Source of the DNA: Ectothiorhodospiraceae bacterium | GTDB lineage: Bacteria; Pseudomonadota; Gammaproteobacteria; Nitrococcales; Aquisalimonadaceae | Length of the DNA stretch: 37,162 nt | Direction of reading: 5' to 3' | Assembly: GCA_020831885.1 (NCBI GenBank) | Contig: JAFIFU010000035.1 | Coordinates: 1-37,162 of the forward strand | In this document: piece after piece, positions 1,775 to 27,192 of the stretch | Position numbering within the stretch: the first letter of the stretch is position 1 | Layout: each line of letters begins with the position of its first letter | Notes under the pieces: model-generated | The model's database searches: none | What the model was told of the DNA's origin: nothing | What the model saw: only the letters and a program-made list of their open reading frames with translations | Program-made: the position numbers and the translations under genes

Positions 1775-1936
1775 GGTTTCCCGCCCCGCCATGTCCAGCC
1801 CTTGATGCGATCTGTCCCGTCAGCCGCGAACGGCGGGCGCTTCCCGGTGGCGCTATGCGCTGATGTCCTGCATGACAGGCTTGCTGGCGGTTCGATCCGG
1901 CGATGCAGGTATGCAGTGGCTGTGCTACCTTCTACC

Positions 1937-2167
1937 GCGCACCAGGTTTCTGCGGCCCACGCCGGTCGCAGATGAAACGGGAAGTCGGTGCCGCCTGCCA
2001 CGCAGGCCTGATCCGACGCTGCCCCCGCAACGGTGATTGTGCTGGCGAGGTGACATCCCCTGTCCCTCGCCGCGGTACGCCAGATGCCACTGTGCCCTGC
2101 GGGCATGGGAAGGCGGCGCACCGTGAACCATCGGTTCGGCGCATCAGCCCGTAGACCGGCCTGGCGC
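1937..2167 (+). promoter_or_regulatory. Cobalamin (B12) riboswitch upstream of btuB
   Basis: The region contains the ordered conserved blocks of the cobalamin aptamer: GAAACGGGAAGTCGGTG at about 1974-1990, GCTGCCCCCGCAACGGTGA at about 2019-2037, GATGCCACTG at about 2083-2092, GGGAAGGCGGCGC at about 2107-2119, and the closing block CATCAGCCCGTAGACCGGCC at about 2142-2161. The outer stem P1 can form between GCGCACCAGG (1937-1946) and CCTGGCGC (2160-2167). It lies about 140 nt before the btuB start and should repress btuB when adenosylcobalamin is abundant. It sits after btuCD, so it does not control those two genes. Confidence 0.93.
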
Positions 2168-2180
2168 ATGTCAGCACACG

Positions 2181-17540: not shown

Positions 17541-17654
17541 ATCTGCCCCCCTCGTATTCTTCGGTTTTGTCGTGCTTGTTCTTATCGTGCGCGGGGAAAC
17601 GCGGTTGCACAGGGACCGGGCGGCCTACCGCATGCCGCACGCCGCCATTGCGCT

Positions 17655-17676
17655 AACGAAGCGCTTCCCAGACGGG
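17655..17676. repeat. Copy of the dispersed repeat
   Basis: AACGAAGCGCTTCCCAGACG continuing GG contains the GAAGCGCTTC palindrome. Its right side (CAGACGGG) relates to the tail of other copies. It lies in the gap between the PilZ gene and the acyl-CoA dehydrogenase gene. Confidence 0.5.
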
Positions 17677-17707
17677 ACGAGCCGCCTACATCGAATCATA
17701 TTCCTGC

Positions 17708-18991
17708 TCAGTCTTCATCCCCCGCATTGCCGGCAGCGGTGCGCAAGGTGTCCGGAAATGTAAAATACGGTGCCGTCGCCCCGCGGGATTCCCGTGCCCG
17801 GCGGAGTTCGTCCCGGGCCACGACACCCAGATGCACCTCGTCGGGGCCGTCCAGGAAACGCATGGCACGGCCCCAAGTCCACAGGAAACTCAGCGGTGTG
17901 TCCGGCGTCAACCCCATGGCGCCGAAGATCTGCATGGCGCGATCCACAATGCGCGTCTGTAGCCGTGCCACCACCACCTTGATACCCGAGACCGCCGTTC
18001 GGGCAGCCCGGGCTCCGTGCTGGTCGATCAGCCAGGCGGCGTGGAGAACCAGAAGCCGCGCCTGGTCAATCTCCAGGCGGGACTCCGCGATCCAGTCCGT
18101 CACGTTGGCCCGGTCGGACAGGTAGCGTCCGAAGGTGCGGCGCTCGCCGGCCCGCTCGCGCATCAGTTCCAGAGCGACCTCGCACTGGCCGATGGAACGC
18201 ATGCAATGGTGGATGCGCCCCGGTCCCAGGCGGGCCTGGGCCATGGCGAAACCCTGCCCTTCCTCGCCCAGCAGACTCTCCTTCGGTACGCGGACGTCCC
18301 GGAACACCAGTTCGCAATGCCCCTCCGGCGCGTGATAGTGCATGATGGGGATGTTGCGCACCAGCTCCAGGCCAGGCGTATCCATCGGCACCAGCACCAT
18401 GCTGTGTCGCCGGTGGGGATCGGCGTCCGGGTCCGAAACCCCGAGTACGATGGCCAGCCGGCAGTTGGGGTGTGTGGGGCCGGTGATGAACCATTTGCGA
18501 CCGTTGATCACGTAGGTGTCGCCGTCCCGGCGGATGCTGGTCTGGATATTGGTGGCATCCGCCGATGCCACGTCCGGCTCGCTCATGGCGAAGCAGGAAC
18601 GGATTGCCCCTTGAAACAGCGGCGTGAGCCACGCATCCCGTTGCTGAGGGGTGGCGAACAGGTGCAACAGCTCCATGTTGCCGGTGTCCGGTGCGCTGCA
18701 GTTGAAGACCTCGGACGCCCAATGCACGCGGCCCATTTCCTCGGCGATGGGGGCATAGTCCAGATTGCTCAGCCCCGTTCCCGGCACGTCCTCCGGCAGG
18801 CCGGGAAGAAACAGGTTCCACAGGCCGTCCCAGCGGGCCAGATCCTTCAGGTTGTCGATCAGCTCCATGGGATACTCGCCCCGGGCCACCTGTGCGTGCC
18901 ACTGGGCGTTGTGGGGCAGCACGTACCGGTCCATGAAAACGCGGACCTGCGCGCGCAGTTCCTCGCTGCGAGGGCTGTAGCTGAAATCCAT
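17708..18991 (-). CDS. Acyl-CoA dehydrogenase (ACAD10/11-like)
   Basis: This 427-residue FAD-dependent acyl-CoA dehydrogenase has an N-terminal helical domain (DFSYSPRSEELRAQVRVFMD), the FAD-binding loop CFAMSEPDVASADATNIQT, WFITGPTH in the beta domain, and a C-terminal helical domain with the typical GRYLSDRANVTDWIAESRLE and QIFGAMGLTPDTPLSFLWTW segments. Length and motifs fit the ACAD10/11-like branch. Chain-length preference cannot be read from the sequence. ATG 18991 follows GGGAG. The frame extends 23 codons further upstream without a ribosome site. It is divergent from the RNA ligase partner gene. Confidence 0.87.
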   Translation of the reverse strand: MDFSYSPRSEELRAQVRVFMDRYVLPHNAQWHAQVARGEYPMELIDNLKDLARWDGLWNLFLPGLPEDVPGTGLSNLDYAPIAEEMGRVHWASEVFNCSAPDTGNMELLHLFATPQQRDAWLTPLFQGAIRSCFAMSEPDVASADATNIQTSIRRDGDTYVINGRKWFITGPTHPNCRLAIVLGVSDPDADPHRRHSMVLVPMDTPGLELVRNIPIMHYHAPEGHCELVFRDVRVPKESLLGEEGQGFAMAQARLGPGRIHHCMRSIGQCEVALELMRERAGERRTFGRYLSDRANVTDWIAESRLEIDQARLLVLHAAWLIDQHGARAARTAVSGIKVVVARLQTRIVDRAMQIFGAMGLTPDTPLSFLWTWGRAMRFLDGPDEVHLGVVARDELRRARESRGATAPYFTFPDTLRTAAGNAGDED

Positions 18992-19177
18992 ACCCGTCTC
19001 CCGCTTGCCGATCCGTCCAAAGGTAACGCGTTCAGCGCGCCGCCCTATGACACAGATCAAGGTGCAGCCGTTCCGGAGATCGTGTCTGTGGCTTGCTTCC
19101 CTTGGTCACCATGCATGAGTAACCATGAATGCGCGCACCGGCCTCTGGCTGAGCGGTGTCCGCGATCATCAGTGAAG

Positions 19178-19207
19178 TTGACCTTTGCCTTCGCCGCCCA
19201 CCATAGT
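19178..19207 (+). promoter_or_regulatory. Candidate sigma-70 promoter of the PIN-domain gene
   Basis: TTGACC (19178-19183) and CATAGT (19202-19207) are separated by 18 nt and lie 34 nt before ATG 19241. The match is 5/6 at -35 and 4/6 at -10. The rest of the 249-bp divergent gap (18992-19240) shows no gene. Confidence 0.5.
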
Positions 19208-19240
19208 GGGGCGATCTCCCATTGCTGCCAGGAAGCGGCC

Positions 19241-19843
19241 ATGCGCAGGTTCGTGCTCGATACCAGTGTATTCACCAATCCTCATGTCTCCGCCCAGTTC
19301 GGCGAACAGCCCGTGGAGGTGATGCGCACCTTCCTTCACCTGGCCCGGGAATCACAGGCGGAGTTCTACATGCCGCTTTCCGTGTACGAGGAACTGGGCA
19401 CCATGCGGGATCTGCAGCCCATGGGAGCGGACTTCGAGACGGTGGTCTGGGTGCGTTCCCCCCGCCGCTTCACCCTGACCATTCCCAGTGACGTGCTGTA
19501 CGAGTTCATCGACGAGGTCCGCAGCCGCATCGCCCGGGGCCTGCGTATTGCGGAGGAGCACACCAAGCGTGCCGGAGCGGCGGCGGACATGCCGCCGGAA
19601 CTGATCACCCATCTGCGGGAACGTTATCGGGAAGCCATGCGCCGGGGTCTTGTGGACTCCACCGAAGACGTTGATGCCGTCCTGCTTGCCATGGAGCTGG
19701 ATGCGGAGCTGGTCAGTGCTGATGAAGGCATGCGCAAGCTGGCCAATCGCATGGGCATCAAGCTGTTGACCCCCGGTTATCTGCGGCGGGTGATGGAGAA
19801 CCTGATGGAGCGTGTGCCGCCGGCGCCCCAGGGGGGCGGCTGA
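19241..19843 (+). CDS. RNA ligase partner protein (PIN domain)
   Basis: This 200-residue protein matches the RNA ligase partner family (related to MJ0950/UPF0278), whose genes accompany Pab1020-type RNA ligases. PIN-like acidic residues are visible: Asp7 in VLDTSVFTNP, Glu50/Glu51 in YEELGTM, Asp143 and Asp145 in TEDVDAVLLA, and Asp161 in LVSADEGM. A metal-dependent ribonuclease fold is therefore likely. ATG 19241 follows GGAAG. The same frame continues far upstream, antisense to the acyl-CoA dehydrogenase, and that part is discarded. It converges with the ligase gene, with 33 bp between the two stops. The target RNA is unknown. Confidence 0.88.
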   Translation: MRRFVLDTSVFTNPHVSAQFGEQPVEVMRTFLHLARESQAEFYMPLSVYEELGTMRDLQPMGADFETVVWVRSPRRFTLTIPSDVLYEFIDEVRSRIARGLRIAEEHTKRAGAAADMPPELITHLRERYREAMRRGLVDSTEDVDAVLLAMELDAELVSADEGMRKLANRMGIKLLTPGYLRRVMENLMERVPPAPQGGG

Positions 19844-19876
19844 TCCGCGTGCCGTGCCCCATCGGGGTGATCCTGC

Positions 19877-20974
19877 TCAGTCGTACTGGAAGCCGCCGGC
19901 CAGGGTGTTGGACAGGGTGCCGGTCATCCGCTCAAGGATGCGCTCGAATTCCAGGATCCAGTGGTTTCCTTCGCGGCGGGGGCTGCCCTCGGCCATGCGC
20001 ACCCGGCTGCCGCCGGTGCGTTTCAGGTGGTCCATGAAGCGCAGCGCATTGTGTTCCGTGCGGAAGCGGCAGCGGAAGGCGTGACTGACACGGCCTTGGG
20101 CCATGCTGCTGTCCATGGCCTGGTGCAGTCCACCGAGAAAGGCCCGGCCCAGAGCCCGTTCCAGTTCCGGATCGTCGCGCTGGCCGTTTTCCCGGGCAAA
20201 GATGGCCAGCCGGAGCAGCCGGTTGCTGAAATACTCCGGCGGCAGATCCAGCAGTTGCTCGCTGCATAGCGCGATGTCGGTGATGTTGGAGCGGCCGGTG
20301 ACGTATTTCGTGCGGCGCTCGTCGGGCGCCCCCTTGAACACCAGGCCTTCGGCGCCCTCGGCGTCCAACTCCATGATCAGCGACCGAAGCCTGTCCACGT
20401 CACCGGGGCGGAAACGCCCGAAGCAGCGTGTCGCCGGCAAGCCGTAGCGGTCGATCAGATCCAGCTTCCGCTCCTGTGGCAGAAAACCTTCCCGGCCTTT
20501 TTGCATCAGATCGAACACGAACAACTGGACGTCTTCGCGAATCTGCGGCGGTGAGCCTTCCAGATAGGGGTTGTCCGGTCCCGCGATCTCCGCGCAGACG
20601 ATCAGTTCCGGGTGTTCGTCGAAGATCCGCGTATCCATGAGTTCCGGCGCGCGGTCCGTGCTGAACGGGCAGATATAGCCCCCGCGGCTGAAGGCGTAGA
20701 CCCCGTCTCCGTGGCGCAGGATGCGGACGTTGAAGCCGTCGATTTTCTCCTCCGCCCAGAAGCCGCCGGCGTAATGGCGCCCAAGCCCCGTGGCCAGCAC
20801 CTGGATGCGGCCGATGGAGGGATAGCCGGGGATCATCATCGTTTCCCCCAGGACAGCGGTCCCCCGCGGTAGCCCCGGGCGTTCGTCCAGGAAGCGGATA
20901 TAGTGTACCGGGCCGTAGTGCAGCCGCTCGGCTCGTCCCCGTTCCAGCGCGTCGTTGATGGTCGATCTGTCCAT
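19877..20974 (-). CDS. RNA ligase, Pab1020/Rnl3 family
   Basis: This 365-residue ATP-dependent RNA ligase is of the archaeal-type homodimeric family (Pyrococcus Pab1020, Methanothermobacter Rnl). Motif I KIDG is at 77-80 with Lys77 as the adenylylated lysine. Motif III LFVFDLM is at 151-157, motif IV GLVFKG at 210-215, and a motif V-like RTKYVTGRS at 221-229 with Lys223. A helical C-terminal domain matches the dimerisation region of the family. Characterised relatives join or circularise single-stranded RNA. ATG 20974 lacks an obvious ribosome site. It is convergent with its PIN-domain partner, a linkage known for this family. Composition is like the surrounding DNA, so any transfer is old. 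Confidence 0.92.
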   Translation of the reverse strand: MDRSTINDALERGRAERLHYGPVHYIRFLDERPGLPRGTAVLGETMMIPGYPSIGRIQVLATGLGRHYAGGFWAEEKIDGFNVRILRHGDGVYAFSRGGYICPFSTDRAPELMDTRIFDEHPELIVCAEIAGPDNPYLEGSPPQIREDVQLFVFDLMQKGREGFLPQERKLDLIDRYGLPATRCFGRFRPGDVDRLRSLIMELDAEGAEGLVFKGAPDERRTKYVTGRSNITDIALCSEQLLDLPPEYFSNRLLRLAIFARENGQRDDPELERALGRAFLGGLHQAMDSSMAQGRVSHAFRCRFRTEHNALRFMDHLKRTGGSRVRMAEGSPRREGNHWILEFERILERMTGTLSNTLAGGFQYD

Positions 20975-21241
20975 GGCGCCAGTATGCAGACTTGTGGCGG
21001 CGAATGCAGTGCTGCCGCAAGAATCGCTGGTGTACTAATCTTCAAGGGAGCGTGCGCGCCTCCTGGCGAACCGGAAATCCCTCCTCCAGTGCCTGTCCGG
21101 ACACCGCCGGCGGGGCGGAAGGAGAAAACAGGGTTTATCCATGCAGTAGTGTATGGAACAATTGAACGCTGGGGTGGATCGCGGGTCCGCACGGCTGTGG
21201 CGTGGGTTGACCAAGGGCGTGCCCGGGCCGTCCGTCGCCCC
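20975..21241. other. Intergenic region between divergent ligase and FadE genes
   Basis: The 313-bp gap between the ligase start and the FadE start holds promoters for both directions by position, but I find no convincing -35/-10 pair. No conserved open frame with a ribosome site is present. The only recognisable element is the repeat copy at its right end. Confidence 0.4.
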
Positions 21242-21264
21242 GGGGAATCGATCAGCGCTTCCCC
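21242..21264. repeat. Single-arm copy of the dispersed repeat
   Basis: GGGGAATCGATCAGCGCTTC continuing CCC is a near-perfect right arm. Its ends GGGGAA and TTCCCC are complementary. It lies only 23 nt before the FadE start codon, so it forms part of the 5' untranslated leader. No matching left arm is nearby. Confidence 0.75.
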
Positions 21265-21287
21265 GGTCCCGGAATCAAGGAGGTCAC

Positions 21288-23549
21288 ATGTTCTCGGCAC
21301 TGATGAATTTCATGCGCAGCAACAACCTGCTGCCCAGCATCTCCGACACGGAGCGCCAGGCCCTGGAGGCCGGCACGGTCTGGGTGGACGGCCAGATCTT
21401 CTCCGGCAATCCTGATTTCCGCCGGATGCTGGATGAGCCCTACAGCAGGCTGAGCGAGGAGGAGCAGGCCTTTCTGGACGGGCCGGCCGAGGAGCTCTGC
21501 CGCATGGTGGATGCTTACCAGGTGGAGCGCACCCGCAAGGTGCCGGACGAGATCATCGACTATATCAGGCAGCAGGGCTTCATGGGCATGATCGTCCCCC
21601 GGGAGTACGGCGGCAAGGGTTTCTCCACGCTGGCGGTATCCGCGGTCATGGCCAAGGTCAACGCCTATTCCTCCGCCGTGGGCACCTTCGTGGTGATTCC
21701 CAACTCCCTGGGTGCTGCGGAGCTGCTCAAGCACTATGGAACCGAGGAACAGAAGCGGGAATACCTGCCGAAGCTGGCGTCCGGAGAATACATCCCCTGC
21801 TTTGGGTTGACCGAACCCACCGCCGGCTCCGATGCGGCCTCCATTCGCGCCGAGGGCGTGGTCTTCCGGGATGATGCCGGCGAGGTGAAGATCCGTCTGA
21901 ACTTCCGTAAGCGCTACATCACGCTGGCACCGGTGGCCAATCTGATCTCCCTGGCCTTCCGGATGCACGATCCCGACGATCTGCTGGGCATGGGAGAGCG
22001 TCCGGGCATCACCGTGATCATGCTGAAGAAGGGCACACCGGGACTGAAGACCGGGGATCACCACGTCCCCATCGGGGACGGATTCTACAACGGGCCCATC
22101 GTCGGCGAGGACGTGATTGCCTCACCGGATCAGATCATCGGCGGGCCGGCTTACGCCGGTCAGGGCTGGCGTATGCTGATGGAGCAATTGGCGGGTGGTC
22201 GTGCGGTCTCCCTGCCTGCCGGGGCCATCGGCGGCATGAAGGCGGTGGCCGCCGTCACCGGTGCCTACTCCATGGTCCGTTACCAGTTCGGCATCCCCAT
22301 CGGCTTGATGGAGGGAGTGCAGGACAAGGTGGCAGGGATCGCCGCCATGGCCTATCTGTTCGAGGGTGCCCGGGTCTTCACCTGTTCCGCCATCGACAAC
22401 GGCCAGCAACCGCCGGTGGTCTCCGCATTGATGAAGGCCAGCAGCACCGAGGTCGTGCAGCGCTTGCTCAAGGATGGCATGGACGTGTTCTCCGGCGCCG
22501 GTGTGATGCAGGGGCCCAACAATATCCTGGGCAGTGGCTACAGTGGGGCACCGGTTGGCATCACCGTGGAAGGCGCCAACATCATGACCCGGACGCTGAT
22601 GATCTTCGGCCAGGGAGCCACCCGATGCCATCCGTATGCGCTGCCCCTGGTGCGGGCCGTGGAAAGCGACGACGTGAAGGCCTTCCGCCGGAATCTGCTG
22701 GACTGGCTGAAACATACCCTGGCCAACTGGGGGCGCACCAGGGTCCGGGGGATCACCCGCGGTTACAGCGCCGGCAGCCCGGTGGAAGGGCCCACGGCCA
22801 CCTATTACCGCCGCCTGGCCTGGGCCAGTTCCCGCTATGCCTTGCTCACCGACCTGGCCATGTACTTCATCGGCGGCAAGCTGAAGGCACGGGGCAACCT
22901 CACAGGCCGCTACGCGGACGCACTCACCTGGCAGGTGCTGGCCCTCTCCGCCCTGCGTCGCTACGAGGCCGAGGGTCGCCGGGAGGAGGATCTGCCGCTG
23001 GTGCGGTACGCCTGCGAGTACGCGTTGGCCCGGATTCAGGAGGCCTTCGAGGGGATTCATGCCAACTTCGACGCCCCGGTGGTGGGCTGGTGGTTGCGCT
23101 GGCCGGCGGCGCTGTTCCTGCGCCTGAATCCGCTTTCCCGCGGACCGGGCGATGAACTCATCCCCCAGGTGGCCGCCTCCATTCAATCGCTGGGCGATCA
23201 GTACGAGCGCATCACGCAGGGCATGGCCCGGCCCCAGGAGGGTGCGCCGGGGGCCGGGCGGTTGCTGCGGGCTTTCCGCCTGCAGCACGAGGCGCAGCCG
23301 GCGGCAGCCAAGATCGCACGGGCGCAGAAAGTCCGGGATCTGCCCCGTGGTCCGGCCTACGAGCAGATCGGCCTGGCGCTGGAGAAGGGCATCATTTCCG
23401 AGACCGAGGCCCAGCAGTTGCGCCAGGCCCACGAAGCCGCCCTGGAGGCCATCGAGGTGGATGTGTTCACTCCGGAAGAGTACTTTGGCCCCGGGGTGAA
23501 ACCGGCCCACGGCGAGGCCGGCCCGGCGGTGGCGGCGGCTGGGCGCTGA
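21288..23549 (+). CDS. fadE: FadE-type acyl-CoA dehydrogenase
   Basis: This 753-residue long-form acyl-CoA dehydrogenase (FadE with the C-terminal DUF1974 extension) catalyses the first step of fatty-acid beta-oxidation. The N-terminal domain includes VPREYGGKGFSTLAVSAVMA. The FAD loop is CFGLTEPTAGSDAASIRAEG, the beta domain has RKRYITLAPVANLISLAFRM, and the C-terminal helical core contains GAGVMQGPNNILGSGYSGAP. The DUF1974-like tail begins near 500 (NLTGRYADALTWQVLALSAL) and ends EEYFGPG. ATG 21288 follows a strong AGGAGG. The frame runs 45 codons further upstream but crosses the repeat copy. Confidence 0.9.
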   Translation: MFSALMNFMRSNNLLPSISDTERQALEAGTVWVDGQIFSGNPDFRRMLDEPYSRLSEEEQAFLDGPAEELCRMVDAYQVERTRKVPDEIIDYIRQQGFMGMIVPREYGGKGFSTLAVSAVMAKVNAYSSAVGTFVVIPNSLGAAELLKHYGTEEQKREYLPKLASGEYIPCFGLTEPTAGSDAASIRAEGVVFRDDAGEVKIRLNFRKRYITLAPVANLISLAFRMHDPDDLLGMGERPGITVIMLKKGTPGLKTGDHHVPIGDGFYNGPIVGEDVIASPDQIIGGPAYAGQGWRMLMEQLAGGRAVSLPAGAIGGMKAVAAVTGAYSMVRYQFGIPIGLMEGVQDKVAGIAAMAYLFEGARVFTCSAIDNGQQPPVVSALMKASSTEVVQRLLKDGMDVFSGAGVMQGPNNILGSGYSGAPVGITVEGANIMTRTLMIFGQGATRCHPYALPLVRAVESDDVKAFRRNLLDWLKHTLANWGRTRVRGITRGYSAGSPVEGPTATYYRRLAWASSRYALLTDLAMYFIGGKLKARGNLTGRYADALTWQVLALSALRRYEAEGRREEDLPLVRYACEYALARIQEAFEGIHANFDAPVVGWWLRWPAALFLRLNPLSRGPGDELIPQVAASIQSLGDQYERITQGMARPQEGAPGAGRLLRAFRLQHEAQPAAAKIARAQKVRDLPRGPAYEQIGLALEKGIISETEAQQLRQAHEAALEAIEVDVFTPEEYFGPGVKPAHGEAGPAVAAAGR

Positions 23550-23632: not shown

Positions 23633-25747
23633 TTATTGCTGACCGCTTTCCAGCATGGCGGAACGGTGGCGTAACTGTGCGGTCATGCTGGATGCCTTCA
23701 CCGCCTCGCCGAAGGTGGTGATCCCCTGGGCCTCCAGCCGCTCCAGGAAGCGTACGAGCAGTTCCGCGGTGGCCATGGTGTCGCCACGGGCCGTGTGGCG
23801 TCCGGTGATATTGACCCCGTAGCGCTCACAGATAGCGTCCAGCGAGTGGTCTTCCTCGTCACCATCGAGCATGGAGGACAGCAGCAGCGTGTCCAGGAGC
23901 GGGTTGTCGAATTTCACCCCGCACTCGGCTTCCTTCAGGCTGATGAATTTCATGTCGAAGGCCGCATTGTGTGCCACCAGGACCGCATCGCCCACGAAAT
24001 CCCGGAACTGGGGGAGAACGACCTGAATCGAGGGTTTTTCCTTCACGTCCTCGTCCGTGATGCCGTGGAACCGGGTGGAATCCGGGGGAATGCCGCGACC
24101 GGGATTGATCAGGCGCTCGAAGGTCTCGCCGGTGAGAATCCGTCGTTTCACCACACGGACGCCGGCAATGGAGATGATTTCGTCTTCCGCCGGGTTGAGT
24201 CCGGTCATCTCGCAGTCGAACACCACGAAGCTGAGATCCGCCAGGCGTTTGCCCGCCAGTTCCTCGCTGCCCTCGTGTTCGCGCATGAGGCCGAAGTCGT
24301 AGAACTCCGGCCGCGCCGGCAGGCGTCTGGGTTCCGGGAGAAACTGAGGGCGCGTCGGAGCGGGGAGCGGAAGCCGCAGCAGCGCCCAGCCCGCGCGCCG
24401 GGCTGGCTGGCTCCAGACCTCGCAGTCGTGCCGTTCCAGAATATCACGCAGGCGCTGGTCGCCGTCCTCGTCGCCGCAGGGGCTGTCCAGCCATTCCTCC
24501 AACAGGCCCGCCGGCACCGGACGCCCTTCCCAGTTCAGGTCCAGGTACACGTTGCGGTCGCCCAGCATGGATTCCACATCGAATGCCTCGCGGCCGGTGT
24601 GGGCATGGAGGTGGCGCACCAGGCAGTCCAGTGCCTGCATCAGGGACAGGCTGTCGCCGTGCAGCCAGAGCGGGATGCCCACCAGGGTGACATGCACCCG
24701 GGGTAGATCCTCCAGGCGCTGCTCCAGGCAGCTCACCAGATCGGTCACCAGCACATCGGCCATGGGCCAGCGGCCCAACAGGTGGCCACGGATCTGCCGC
24801 GCCAGACCGTCCAGGCGTTCGCTCAGGGCCTCGCTCTCGCTCAGCAGAACCTGATCGAACCGGTCCCGTTCGTCGGGATGCATGTCCGGATACTGGCTGA
24901 TGGTTTCCGCGGCGGCGCGCAGATTGGCGGCGATGCCGCGTAGATCCCGGGTCAGTGCGCGTCGGACCGCGTCCCCCCGGGCGAGCAGCGCCACATCCTC
25001 CGAGATGTCCACCAGGGTGACCAGGTAGCCGGTGACCTCGCCTTTCGCGTCCAGGATCAGGGCCATGCGGCCGTGCAGCATGTACAGGGCGTCGGCGCTG
25101 GTGCAGACGAAGGGAGCGGTAAGCTCCGCCGGGGCCTCGTGATCCTCCCGGTGGCGGCGTTCCAGCCGTTCCAGCGTGTGCTGGACCGGCGGCTGGGAGA
25201 GCACGTTGAACAGCGAACGGCCCAGGCCGATGTGTTCCGGCATGCCCAGGATGGCCACGGCCGCCTTGTTGTACAGCATGATCTGATGCTGACGGTTGCA
25301 GACCAGCACGCCCTCGGTCAGCCCCTGTAGTATCACTTCCAACCAGGTTTTCTGTTCATCCACCTGCGCCGTGGCGGATTCCATGGCCTTGCGGATCTCC
25401 CGGCGGGATGCGCGTAACTGGTCTGCCATGGCCTGTACCGCCTCCGGCAACTGACCCAGGGCGTGGTGCTCCGGCAGCGGTAGCTGCTGTTCGGGACTGC
25501 GGGACTCCAGTATGGCCCGGATCCCCCGGGTGAGCTTCCGCGACGGCCGCATCAGTAACCGGTCCAGCAGCAGCCAGGCGAAACCCACCAGAACGGCAAG
25601 CCCCAGACCGCCCAGCAGTGCCGCCATGAAAGGGCGCTGCCCATCGGAGGTTTCCGGCGCCACGGAATAGGCCACGACGATGATGATGGACACGGCGGCG
25701 ACGCCGATGCCGAGAAAAAGCAGATTGATCAGTTGTCGCGTTTGCAT
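23633..25747 (-). CDS. Membrane PAS sensor fused to DEDDh 3'-5' exonuclease
   Basis: This 704-residue protein has two N-terminal helices (about 7-28 and 40-65), a HAMP-like linker and coiled coil, and a PAS domain (about 140-265, VILQGLTEGVLVCNRQHQIM). A kinase-like region follows (about 270-475) that lacks a clear phosphoacceptor His or N-box. It ends with a DnaQ-type exonuclease (about 510-680): FDCEMTGL, HNAAFDMKF and HTARGD give a complete DEDDh site. ATG 25747 is chosen because the preceding gene stops just 5 nt upstream; the earlier frame overlaps that gene. The family is known beside acetate-type symporters and DUF294 proteins, but its nucleic-acid substrate is not established. It is last in the minus-strand cluster. 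Confidence 0.85.
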   Translation of the reverse strand: MQTRQLINLLFLGIGVAAVSIIIVVAYSVAPETSDGQRPFMAALLGGLGLAVLVGFAWLLLDRLLMRPSRKLTRGIRAILESRSPEQQLPLPEHHALGQLPEAVQAMADQLRASRREIRKAMESATAQVDEQKTWLEVILQGLTEGVLVCNRQHQIMLYNKAAVAILGMPEHIGLGRSLFNVLSQPPVQHTLERLERRHREDHEAPAELTAPFVCTSADALYMLHGRMALILDAKGEVTGYLVTLVDISEDVALLARGDAVRRALTRDLRGIAANLRAAAETISQYPDMHPDERDRFDQVLLSESEALSERLDGLARQIRGHLLGRWPMADVLVTDLVSCLEQRLEDLPRVHVTLVGIPLWLHGDSLSLMQALDCLVRHLHAHTGREAFDVESMLGDRNVYLDLNWEGRPVPAGLLEEWLDSPCGDEDGDQRLRDILERHDCEVWSQPARRAGWALLRLPLPAPTRPQFLPEPRRLPARPEFYDFGLMREHEGSEELAGKRLADLSFVVFDCEMTGLNPAEDEIISIAGVRVVKRRILTGETFERLINPGRGIPPDSTRFHGITDEDVKEKPSIQVVLPQFRDFVGDAVLVAHNAAFDMKFISLKEAECGVKFDNPLLDTLLLSSMLDGDEEDHSLDAICERYGVNITGRHTARGDTMATAELLVRFLERLEAQGITTFGEAVKASSMTAQLRHRSAMLESGQQ

Positions 25748-25752
25748 GAGCG

Positions 25753-27192
25753 TCAGTTGATGGCCGTGCCTACCAGGCGTTGATGGACCTGTTCCAGCAG
25801 CCCTCGGGATGCCTTCATGCTCCGCACCAGGGTCTCCTGCTCCCGTCGGGTGAGGCTCTCGGGCGGAACATGCTGCCCCGCGGGTTGGCCCGCGTTCAGG
25901 TTGCGGGCCTGTTGTTTCAGCAACAGCCGACACATGTATGCGAAAGCATGGCTCAGTTCGTCCCGGGCGTCATTGTCCAGCACCCCCTGTTGATGGAGGC
26001 CGGCCAGACGTTCCAGCGTGGAATGTGCACTGATCCCGCAGGACAGGGCGAACAGGCGCACGCCTTCCACCACCGGCATGAAGCCATCGCGCTTCAGGTT
26101 CAGTTCTCCTGCATGTGGGCTTTCACCACCTTCGGTGCGCAGGCGGTCGAACCAGCCCAGGCCCACCTCCTTGATGGACTCATTCAGCATCAGTGCCCGG
26201 AGAAACCCCGGCGCGGAGGAGACGGCGCGGATCATGTCCTGGCGCAGGGTCTCCCCCAGCTCTCTGTCGCCGGCGACCCCGCGGACATCCAGCAGAATGC
26301 AGGCGTTGAGCAGCGCCTGGGGACTGCGTCGGCGGATCCAGCTCCGGAGCTGGCGCTGCCACTGGGACAGGGTCTTGCGCCAGAGCGGATTGCTGACCAT
26401 GACATGGCCCGGACACCGGGGAATGCCAGCGGCATCCAGACGGTCCGTAATCCGTACCGCCAGTTCGGCGAAGTAGCTGTCGATGGCGTTGTGCGCCTGG
26501 TCCGGATAGTCGTCGATGACCAGCGCATTGTCCTGATCGGGAGCCAGCAGGTTCTCACAGCGCCCGCCGGAGCCCATAACAAGCAATGTGAAACCTGCGG
26601 GCGGTGTCCCCCAGCCGTCTTCCTCCAGGCTGGCCACACTGGCATCCAGGGCCCGCCGGTAGATGTCGTCGTTGATGGCGGACAGCAAGCGCTGGATATC
26701 CGCGGTGGCGATGTCCGTGCCCAGCAGTTCCCTGGTCAGGGCCGGTTTGAGCGCCGGCAAGGCCGGTAGAGCCAATGCCGCATTCTCGCCGGACAGTGAG
26801 GAGGGCAGGAGTTGAGCCAACAGCTCTTGCGGCCGCACCCGGCCCACCAGGGCGCCGGAGCGGTCCACCACCAGCAGCGGGGTATCTCCGGTCAGACGGA
26901 TCACCAGACGAAGGACGGGGTTCTCCGCCTGGACCAGTTCGGGGGAGGGATCCATGGCATCCATCGCCCGGGCCTGGCGCAGCCCCGGGTCGGCCAGATG
27001 CCGGATCAGCCCCCGGGCGGTGATCTGCCCCTGGACCTGGCCGCCCGGCCGCAGTACCACCGCGTGATCCACCCCGGCATCCGCCATGTGTGCCATGACC
27101 TGCTGCAGGGGTGTGTGCCCGGTACAGGTCACGGCCACCGGGCGCGCCAGGGCGCCAATCCCTCGGCTCAACAGTTCGGCGATGCGATCCAT
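25753..27192 (-). CDS. CBS-pair/DUF294 putative nucleotidyltransferase
   Basis: This 479-residue protein has two CBS-like repeats (about 10-130). A helical linker leads to the nucleotidyltransferase core with GSGGRCE at 207-213 and DQDN at 219-222, then a DUF294 C-terminal helical domain. The core motif is the GlnD-like G-S-x-G-R...D-x-D pattern, so nucleotidyl transfer to a protein or small molecule is possible but unproven. It is one of three paralogues in the cluster. GRCE replaces the usual GRQE. It starts 2 nt before the previous gene's stop region and ends 5 nt before the exonuclease gene, so all three are tightly coupled. Confidence 0.85.
   Translation of the reverse strand: MDRIAELLSRGIGALARPVAVTCTGHTPLQQVMAHMADAGVDHAVVLRPGGQVQGQITARGLIRHLADPGLRQARAMDAMDPSPELVQAENPVLRLVIRLTGDTPLLVVDRSGALVGRVRPQELLAQLLPSSLSGENAALALPALPALKPALTRELLGTDIATADIQRLLSAINDDIYRRALDASVASLEEDGWGTPPAGFTLLVMGSGGRCENLLAPDQDNALVIDDYPDQAHNAIDSYFAELAVRITDRLDAAGIPRCPGHVMVSNPLWRKTLSQWQRQLRSWIRRRSPQALLNACILLDVRGVAGDRELGETLRQDMIRAVSSAPGFLRALMLNESIKEVGLGWFDRLRTEGGESPHAGELNLKRDGFMPVVEGVRLFALSCGISAHSTLERLAGLHQQGVLDNDARDELSHAFAYMCRLLLKQQARNLNAGQPAGQHVPPESLTRREQETLVRSMKASRGLLEQVHQRLVGTAIN

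Follow-up and report, generated by a model that had tools for sequence, protein, structure and literature searches.

A convergent HARP and Rnl3-type RNA ligase gene pair in an Ectothiorhodospiraceae bacterium and its relatives

Introduction

The pairing of HARP (homolog of Aquifex RNase P) with an Rnl3-type RNA ligase is already in print, together with the idea that the two may circularize RNA (Seshadri and Gopalan, mBio 2025; PMC12153264). In that survey, the genes were adjacent or within 5 kb of each other in 127 of 164 bacterial cases, with Thioalkalivibrio, Halorhodospira and Aquisalimonas among the carriers named. Most HARP carriers came from environments that are saline, alkaline or hot, and gene orientation was called 'typically bidirectional', a term that does not tell convergent from divergent pairs. 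The function of HARP in cells equipped with another RNase P is posed as an open question in the literature, and the original prediction for the locus described here, which left the role of the pair without an answer, stands on this point. Our literature search gave no further paper on the HARP–ligase pair among the matches listed.

The locus lies in a window of 37,162 nucleotides, meaning the whole stretch of DNA that was analyzed, and it holds the same two families in one genome, adjacent and not co-directional. Added here are the convergence and frame overlap of the bacterial pairs, matched second types of both genes, the lack of a conserved third gene, an empty site in a close relative and the lack of fibrillarin. 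These details sharpen the description of an established pair rather than defining a new one.

The HARP gene

The first gene (19241..19843, + strand) runs from an ATG at 19241 to a stop codon ending at 19843 and encodes a 200-aa protein, a PIN_5 metallonuclease with an inserted spike-helix domain. The original prediction had recognized a PIN-like nuclease with acidic residues, an intact ligase and their linkage, all of which stood, but it missed both the identity of the nuclease as HARP and the published pair (PMC12153264). The protein matches PF08745 (PIN_5) at 1e-64 in a domain profile search and TIGR03875 ('RNA ligase partner protein') with 228 bits (7.8e-68; cut-off 95.3); the family match is full length, spanning residues 8-194 of the 205-aa stretch searched, and far over the cut-offs. 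Among solved structures, the best sequence match (1.1e-80) is 7og5, the HARP Hhal2243 of Halorhodospira halophila, which has the same PIN and spike-helix layout and the same catalytic aspartates, and all seven distinct solved sequences that match carry the label RNA-free ribonuclease P. Judged by its sequence, the 'PIN protein' is HARP, a member of the protein-only RNase P family. As a HARP it would be expected to form a large homo-oligomer and to process pre-tRNA 5' ends. Reports on the activity of close relatives of the window HARP conflict: H. halophila HARP cleaves pre-tRNA according to PMC8266387, and PMC12153264 refers to another study where no such cleavage was obtained.

The gene probably starts at ATG 19241 and not at 19178, from which the span had originally been drawn. 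Position 19178 is an in-frame TTG 5' of this ATG, and the alignments of relatives start directly after the ATG. A weak promoter-like match (19178..19207, + strand) sits at the earlier start, with 1 found versus 0.6 expected by chance.

All four catalytic aspartates (D7, D139, D143 and D161) are retained. In an alignment of 104 HARPs, 99 of them bacterial and 5 haloarchaeal, D139, D143 and D161 are present in 104/104 and D7 in 101, with 2 gaps and 1 E. The catalytic aspartates of Aq880 (D7, D138, D142 and a fourth) are all matched in the window; the fourth is printed as D161 in PMC8266387 and corresponds to Aq880 position 160 in the alignment made here. In a solved HARP, pre-tRNA is bound and positioned by arginines (PMC9051087); alignments place their counterparts in the window at R94, R102, K109, R126, R130 and R134, and each of these residues is basic. 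The first of them is missing from haloarchaeal HARPs, which have S or E in 5/5. Five basic spike-helix residues of Aq880 were mutated jointly in a quintuple mutant (PMC8266387), and two of the five, K119 and R123, are replaced by E120 and H124 in the window. The spike helix and cleavage-site arginines expected of a HARP are in place, yet their conservation is not full. Across the 45 HARPs of the window's own lineage, which supply 45 of the 99 bacterial HARPs in the residue survey, E is combined with H or Q at positions 120 and 124 in 40, and K or R occurs at either site in none; Aquificota HARPs have K or R at both equivalent sites (10/10). We considered whether this charge loss is tied to the presence of a ribonucleoprotein (RNP) RNase P and rejected the idea, as exceptions blur the association: several lineages that possess an RNP RNase P have a basic residue at each site. 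E120/H124 therefore reads as a lineage trait and does not simply report on which RNase P a cell uses.

The ligase gene and the space between the genes

The second gene (19877..20974, - strand) encodes a 365-aa ATP-dependent RNA ligase, originally described as complete and of the Rnl3/Pab1020 type, a description that the searches bear out. The motifs EEKIDG, VFDLM, GLVFKG and TKYVTG were all found, TIGR01209 is matched with 312 bits (3.6e-93; cut-off 136.9), and the domain matches are PF09414 at 3.8e-19 and PF18330 (Lig_C) at 1.6e-18. Solved relatives number six altogether, including 3qwu (2.4e-107), 2vug (4e-65) and 5d1o (2.3e-40). The nearest, 3qwu, bears the label 'DNA ligase' and is presumably an Aquifex aeolicus protein. 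The archaeal ligases Pab1020 and MthRnl (2vug, 5d1o) have the same nucleotidyltransferase motifs and Lig_C domain; they differ in that the window ligase is nearest to 3qwu and its activity is predicted. The nucleotidyltransferase lysine K77 is kept in 85 of 85 aligned ligases, as are E209, G210 and K223, with K214 in 84/85; position 79 is D in 79 ligases and N in the remaining 6. The window has all of these residues. Loss of the PIN acidic residues or of the ligase nucleophile had been named at the outset as a possible objection, and the alignments show both conserved. The predicted product is an intact Rnl3/Pab1020-type RNA ligase, which as a member of this family would be expected to work as a homodimer in ATP-dependent intramolecular ligation.

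The coordinates agree with the original account of a 200-aa protein and a ligase in convergent orientation: the two genes lie tail to tail with their stop codons 33 bp apart (19844..19876). This space contains CCCC-ATC-GGGG, which could pair and is without a T run, and a search of 18900-21400 found 0 terminator-like sites versus 1.3 expected by chance.

Linkage and orientation across genomes

Conserved linkage among relatives had been predicted, and its absence had been named as a further possible objection; the linkage found is strong. In the window's order (54 genomes), HARP is present in 25 genomes and the ligase in 27, with both in 25. HARP alone occurs in 0/54; set against the published survey (PMC12153264), 2 of the 27 ligase genomes show no HARP, both 81% complete, so that the gene may simply be missing data. 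The genus with code g10 (G028, G029) has the ligase alone. Both genes lie on one contig within 1.5 kb in 19 of the 25 HARP genomes, and all 19 pairs are convergent as read by eye from match tables. The other six, all in genus code g9 (G019-G022, G024, G025), keep both genes, on separate contigs or distant from each other. Across 398 genomes of the phylum, HARP is found in 4 and the ligase, over cut-off, in the identical 4, with 9 more ligase matches under the cut-off.

A wider view came from the best 80 of 234 confirmed HARP loci in the GTDB genome collection, a set that leans to the window's lineage. A ligase is nearby in 66 of them, and the genes are convergent in 66/66 and tandem in 0/66. 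Record titles place these loci in Gammaproteobacteria, Zetaproteobacteria, Aquificota, Methylacidiphilum (Verrucomicrobiota), Spirochaetia and Tectomicrobia, although many are MAG contigs whose title may misname the host; several come from the same genomes as the order survey, and the two sets of counts are not additive. For the 14 loci without a nearby ligase, 10 genomes have an over-cut-off ligase elsewhere, 1 has a weak fragment and 3 have no match. The median stop-to-stop distance in the 66 convergent pairs is 13.5 bp, with 59 at 60 bp or less, and the reading frames overlap by 4-42 bp in 22. Orientation in bacteria can therefore be stated more sharply than 'typically bidirectional' (PMC12153264). 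The archaeal side rests on two plasmid pairs: among five haloarchaeal plasmids with HARP, 2 carry an adjacent ligase head to head, in divergent orientation, and the other 3 gave no ligase match on the same plasmid. Adjacency is thus found in two opposite layouts. In a Haloferax control HARP was matched and the ligase was not, and PMC9014305 describes Haloferax as being without a type-3 Rnl. Because both genes score far over curated cut-offs and the arrangement recurs in relatives, we conclude from the searches and gene maps that the pairing is not due to chance. Among the bacterial pairs, two (L016/L046 in G037 and L006/L048 in G018) are convergent with ~1.4-1.5 kb between the genes.

Orientation bears directly on one proposal. 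PMC12153264 puts HARP in the VapC-like PIN group and discusses a toxin-antitoxin idea, in which HARP would be an RNase toxin and the ligase an antidote that re-seals its cuts, and patchy presence combined with linkage would suit such a pair. However, VapBC-like type II systems are co-directional operons, and the convergent order of the window pair and of 66/66 relatives, none in tandem, disfavors a toxin-antitoxin operon. HARP also exists without a ligase, a Thermococcus ligase knock-out is viable (PMC9014305), and a 2024 review (PMC10941002) holds an RNA-degrading role for HARP to be unlikely. We consider this explanation very improbable.

The original prediction also held that the two mRNAs could overlap at their 3' ends and might then cross-regulate. 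The overlap is plausible, since the frames themselves overlap in 22 of 66 convergent relatives and a terminator-like site is lacking in 18900-21400.

Co-variation, transfer and neighborhood

The two genes vary together. Pairwise HARP and ligase distances correlate at 0.93 over 84 pairs, a value reached in 0 of 1000 permutations, although such a correlation fits co-transfer and shared species descent alike, and the 84 pairs include some genomes twice. The main groups coincide in the HARP and ligase trees, which were built from 50 pairs left after thinning the 84 by hand. Both trees set apart the haloarchaea and a divergent second type, and both place Aquificota pairs among those of proteobacteria, a placement moderately supported in the HARP tree (90/81). 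The two trees conflict on rows L124, G020, L102 and L113/L123. The second type (G030, G032, G033, G034 and G052) falls within the window's own order and is only 43-46% identical to the window in HARP and 36-40% in the ligase, whereas the 14 further pairs compared within the order reach 67-96% and 44-81%. The coincidence of second-type HARP with second-type ligase reads as joint replacement. The ligase of G001, 39% identical to the window's, looks like a further second-type case. In this genome HARP (L027/L029, G001:C16:53395-53948) is in two touching pieces in different frames, possibly a frameshifted gene or an assembly error, and the ligase convergent with it is without inner stops.

No third gene was seen to travel with the pair: when every open frame of 90 aa or longer within 5 kb was clustered, antisense frames included, no cluster extended beyond 3 of 22 lineages. 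This survey took in 67 loci, with 3 kb available on the HARP side in 56 and on the ligase side in 46, and up to four of the 22 lineages are single loci with genes cut by contig ends, which lie outside the comparison. Acyl-CoA dehydrogenase neighbors were considered as partners and rejected; sister-genus genomes G005 and G009 have them away from the pair. Two genes away from the pair, the window encodes PAS sensor domains and an RNase_T/DnaQ-type 3'-5' exonuclease domain (PF00929, 4.8e-41) in one protein (23633-25933, - strand). A cobalamin riboswitch was also found at 1927-2178 (+ strand; 77.8 bits).

A stretch of the window (17541..21277) that carries an acyl-CoA dehydrogenase gene on the - strand, HARP and the ligase is absent from the same-genus genome G011. 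There, the PilZ and FadE-like genes are direct neighbors 282 bp apart, compared with ~3.7 kb in the window, and neither HARP nor the ligase was found; the genome is 88% complete and the empty site is covered. No target-site repeats were seen at the ends of the missing stretch. A phage or virus origin was considered and rejected, as 50,697 phage records gave no HARP or ligase match, and pattern-based scans of IMG/VR contigs confirmed neither gene.

This pattern could mean that the pair is a co-transferred cassette, held together mainly by geometry, whose two genes spread jointly and are not closely coupled in function. Recombination can hardly split genes that overlap tail to tail, so such a pair would move together, and the frame overlap, the varying neighbors between lineages, the place of the Aquificota pairs in both trees and the presence or absence of the pair within one genus are all consistent with this. 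Geometry, however, does not account for the six of 25 HARP genomes of the order that keep both genes though apart, for the ligase found elsewhere in 10 of the 14 genomes in which none adjoins HARP, or for the two haloarchaeal plasmids with the pair head to head. As a full account, a cassette of this kind is rather unlikely.

RNase P and fibrillarin in HARP-carrying genomes

HARP is not the sole RNase P of the window's own genome, which contains an RNA-based RNase P (RNase P RNA, RF00010, 331.5 bits; RNase P protein, PF00825, 113 bits). RF00010 was found in 34 of 50 HARP genomes, drawn from the best 80 loci under stricter filters; those without a match are 10/10 Aquificota and 6 others, all MAGs by title. 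In 34 chosen HARP-positive genomes, the RNase P protein gene (rnpA) is absent from 10/10 Aquificota and present in 23/24 others. The ligase adjoins HARP in nine of the ten Aquificota; in the tenth (L135), the contig ends 120 bp past HARP and the genome has no ligase match. Since Aquificota without RNP RNase P and other lineages with it share the ligase, the partner is retained both where HARP is the only RNase P and where it is not.

The two enzymes might instead form a parallel stress kit, with HARP as a back-up RNase P and Rnl3 mending broken RNA under salt, alkali or heat, so that they share conditions and no substrate. PMC12153264 puts this forward together with the saline, alkaline and hot habitats of HARP carriers, and the RNP RNase P of the window's genome fits a back-up role. 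But shared conditions alone leave unexplained adjacency in a single orientation in 66/66 neighboring bacterial pairs, overlapping frames in 22 and, inside one order, second types of HARP and ligase that match each other. We regard the stress kit as possible and on balance doubtful.

Maturation of C/D-box sRNA, with HARP trimming 5' ends and the ligase closing circles, has been proposed for archaea (PMC12153264), and a Thermococcus ligase knock-out abolishes C/D-box sRNA circles according to PMC9014305. Such a pathway would be expected to come with fibrillarin in the same genome. The window's own genome gave no match, and 0 of 28 chosen HARP-positive bacterial genomes had one over the cut-off; 6 weak, partial matches fell short of it. 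Among the 14 control genomes, 5 matched, 4 of them over the cut-off, and four of the five are archaea. With 0/28 over the cut-off the C/D-box idea is ill-suited to bacteria, where we give it almost no weight, and it may still hold in archaea.

A possible cut-and-seal role

RNase P-type cleavage yields a 5'-phosphate. MthRnl joins 5'-phosphate to 3'-hydroxyl ends (PMC5599603), so the products of the one enzyme would fit its partner without end healing. On this basis, we tentatively favor a two-gene accessory cut-and-seal module, at slightly less than an even chance. HARP would cut tRNA-like or otherwise structured precursor RNAs and leave a 5'-phosphate, which Rnl3 would join to a 3'-hydroxyl, either circularizing the product or re-sealing a broken RNA; unlike the RtcB or Pnkp routes, no end-healing enzymes would be needed. 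The module would be accessory in this genome given the RNA-based RNase P, and its use would likely be RNA processing or repair under harsh conditions. Catalytic residues are kept in both proteins, and the bacterial genes co-vary and co-occur, in most cases as tail-to-tail neighbors; from this we infer that HARP and Rnl3 are functionally coupled. With the tail-to-tail layout, HARP and the ligase would each have a separate promoter, and their transcripts may overlap at the 3' ends; the surest effect of the layout would be joint carriage of both genes.

Several points weigh against the module. Shared occurrence is linkage and not a shared reaction, and no common substrate is known. Growth was unimpaired on HARP deletion in Haloferax and Methanosarcina (PMC10941002) and on Rnl deletion in Thermococcus (PMC9014305). 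In Thermococcus, the loss of Rnl altered C/D-box sRNA circles and not those of tRNA or rRNA intermediates. Some HARPs are without a ligase (3 of 80 genomes, and Haloferax), and the trees conflict on some rows. A different division of labor, also proposed in PMC12153264, has the ligase adenylating pre-tRNA 5' ends under stress and HARP later removing the capped leaders. It starts from the strong adenylation activity of Palaeococcus Rnl3, but the window ligase keeps its sealing motifs and C-terminal domain, and we think there is little chance that this is the main role.

A more specific form of the cut-and-seal reading can be drawn for bacteria, in which the pair is a horizontally moving cut-and-circularize module. 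HARP, freed from tRNA housekeeping by the RNA-based RNase P and altered in spike-helix charge (E120/H124) in the window's lineage, would open specific structured RNAs, Rnl3 would close them into circles, and the mRNAs would overlap tail to tail. Taken as a whole, this chain of steps is unlikely. The question of what HARP does beside an existing RNase P is narrowed by a co-occurring, co-varying and convergent ligase without a third gene, together with the poor bacterial fit of the C/D-box route. Thioalkalivibrio and Halorhodospira are suitable organisms for a circular-RNA test. In Thioalkalivibrio strains (L069, L078 and L081), the space separating the stop codons contains a long inverted repeat that could terminate transcription of both genes or could belong to a dispersed repeat family.
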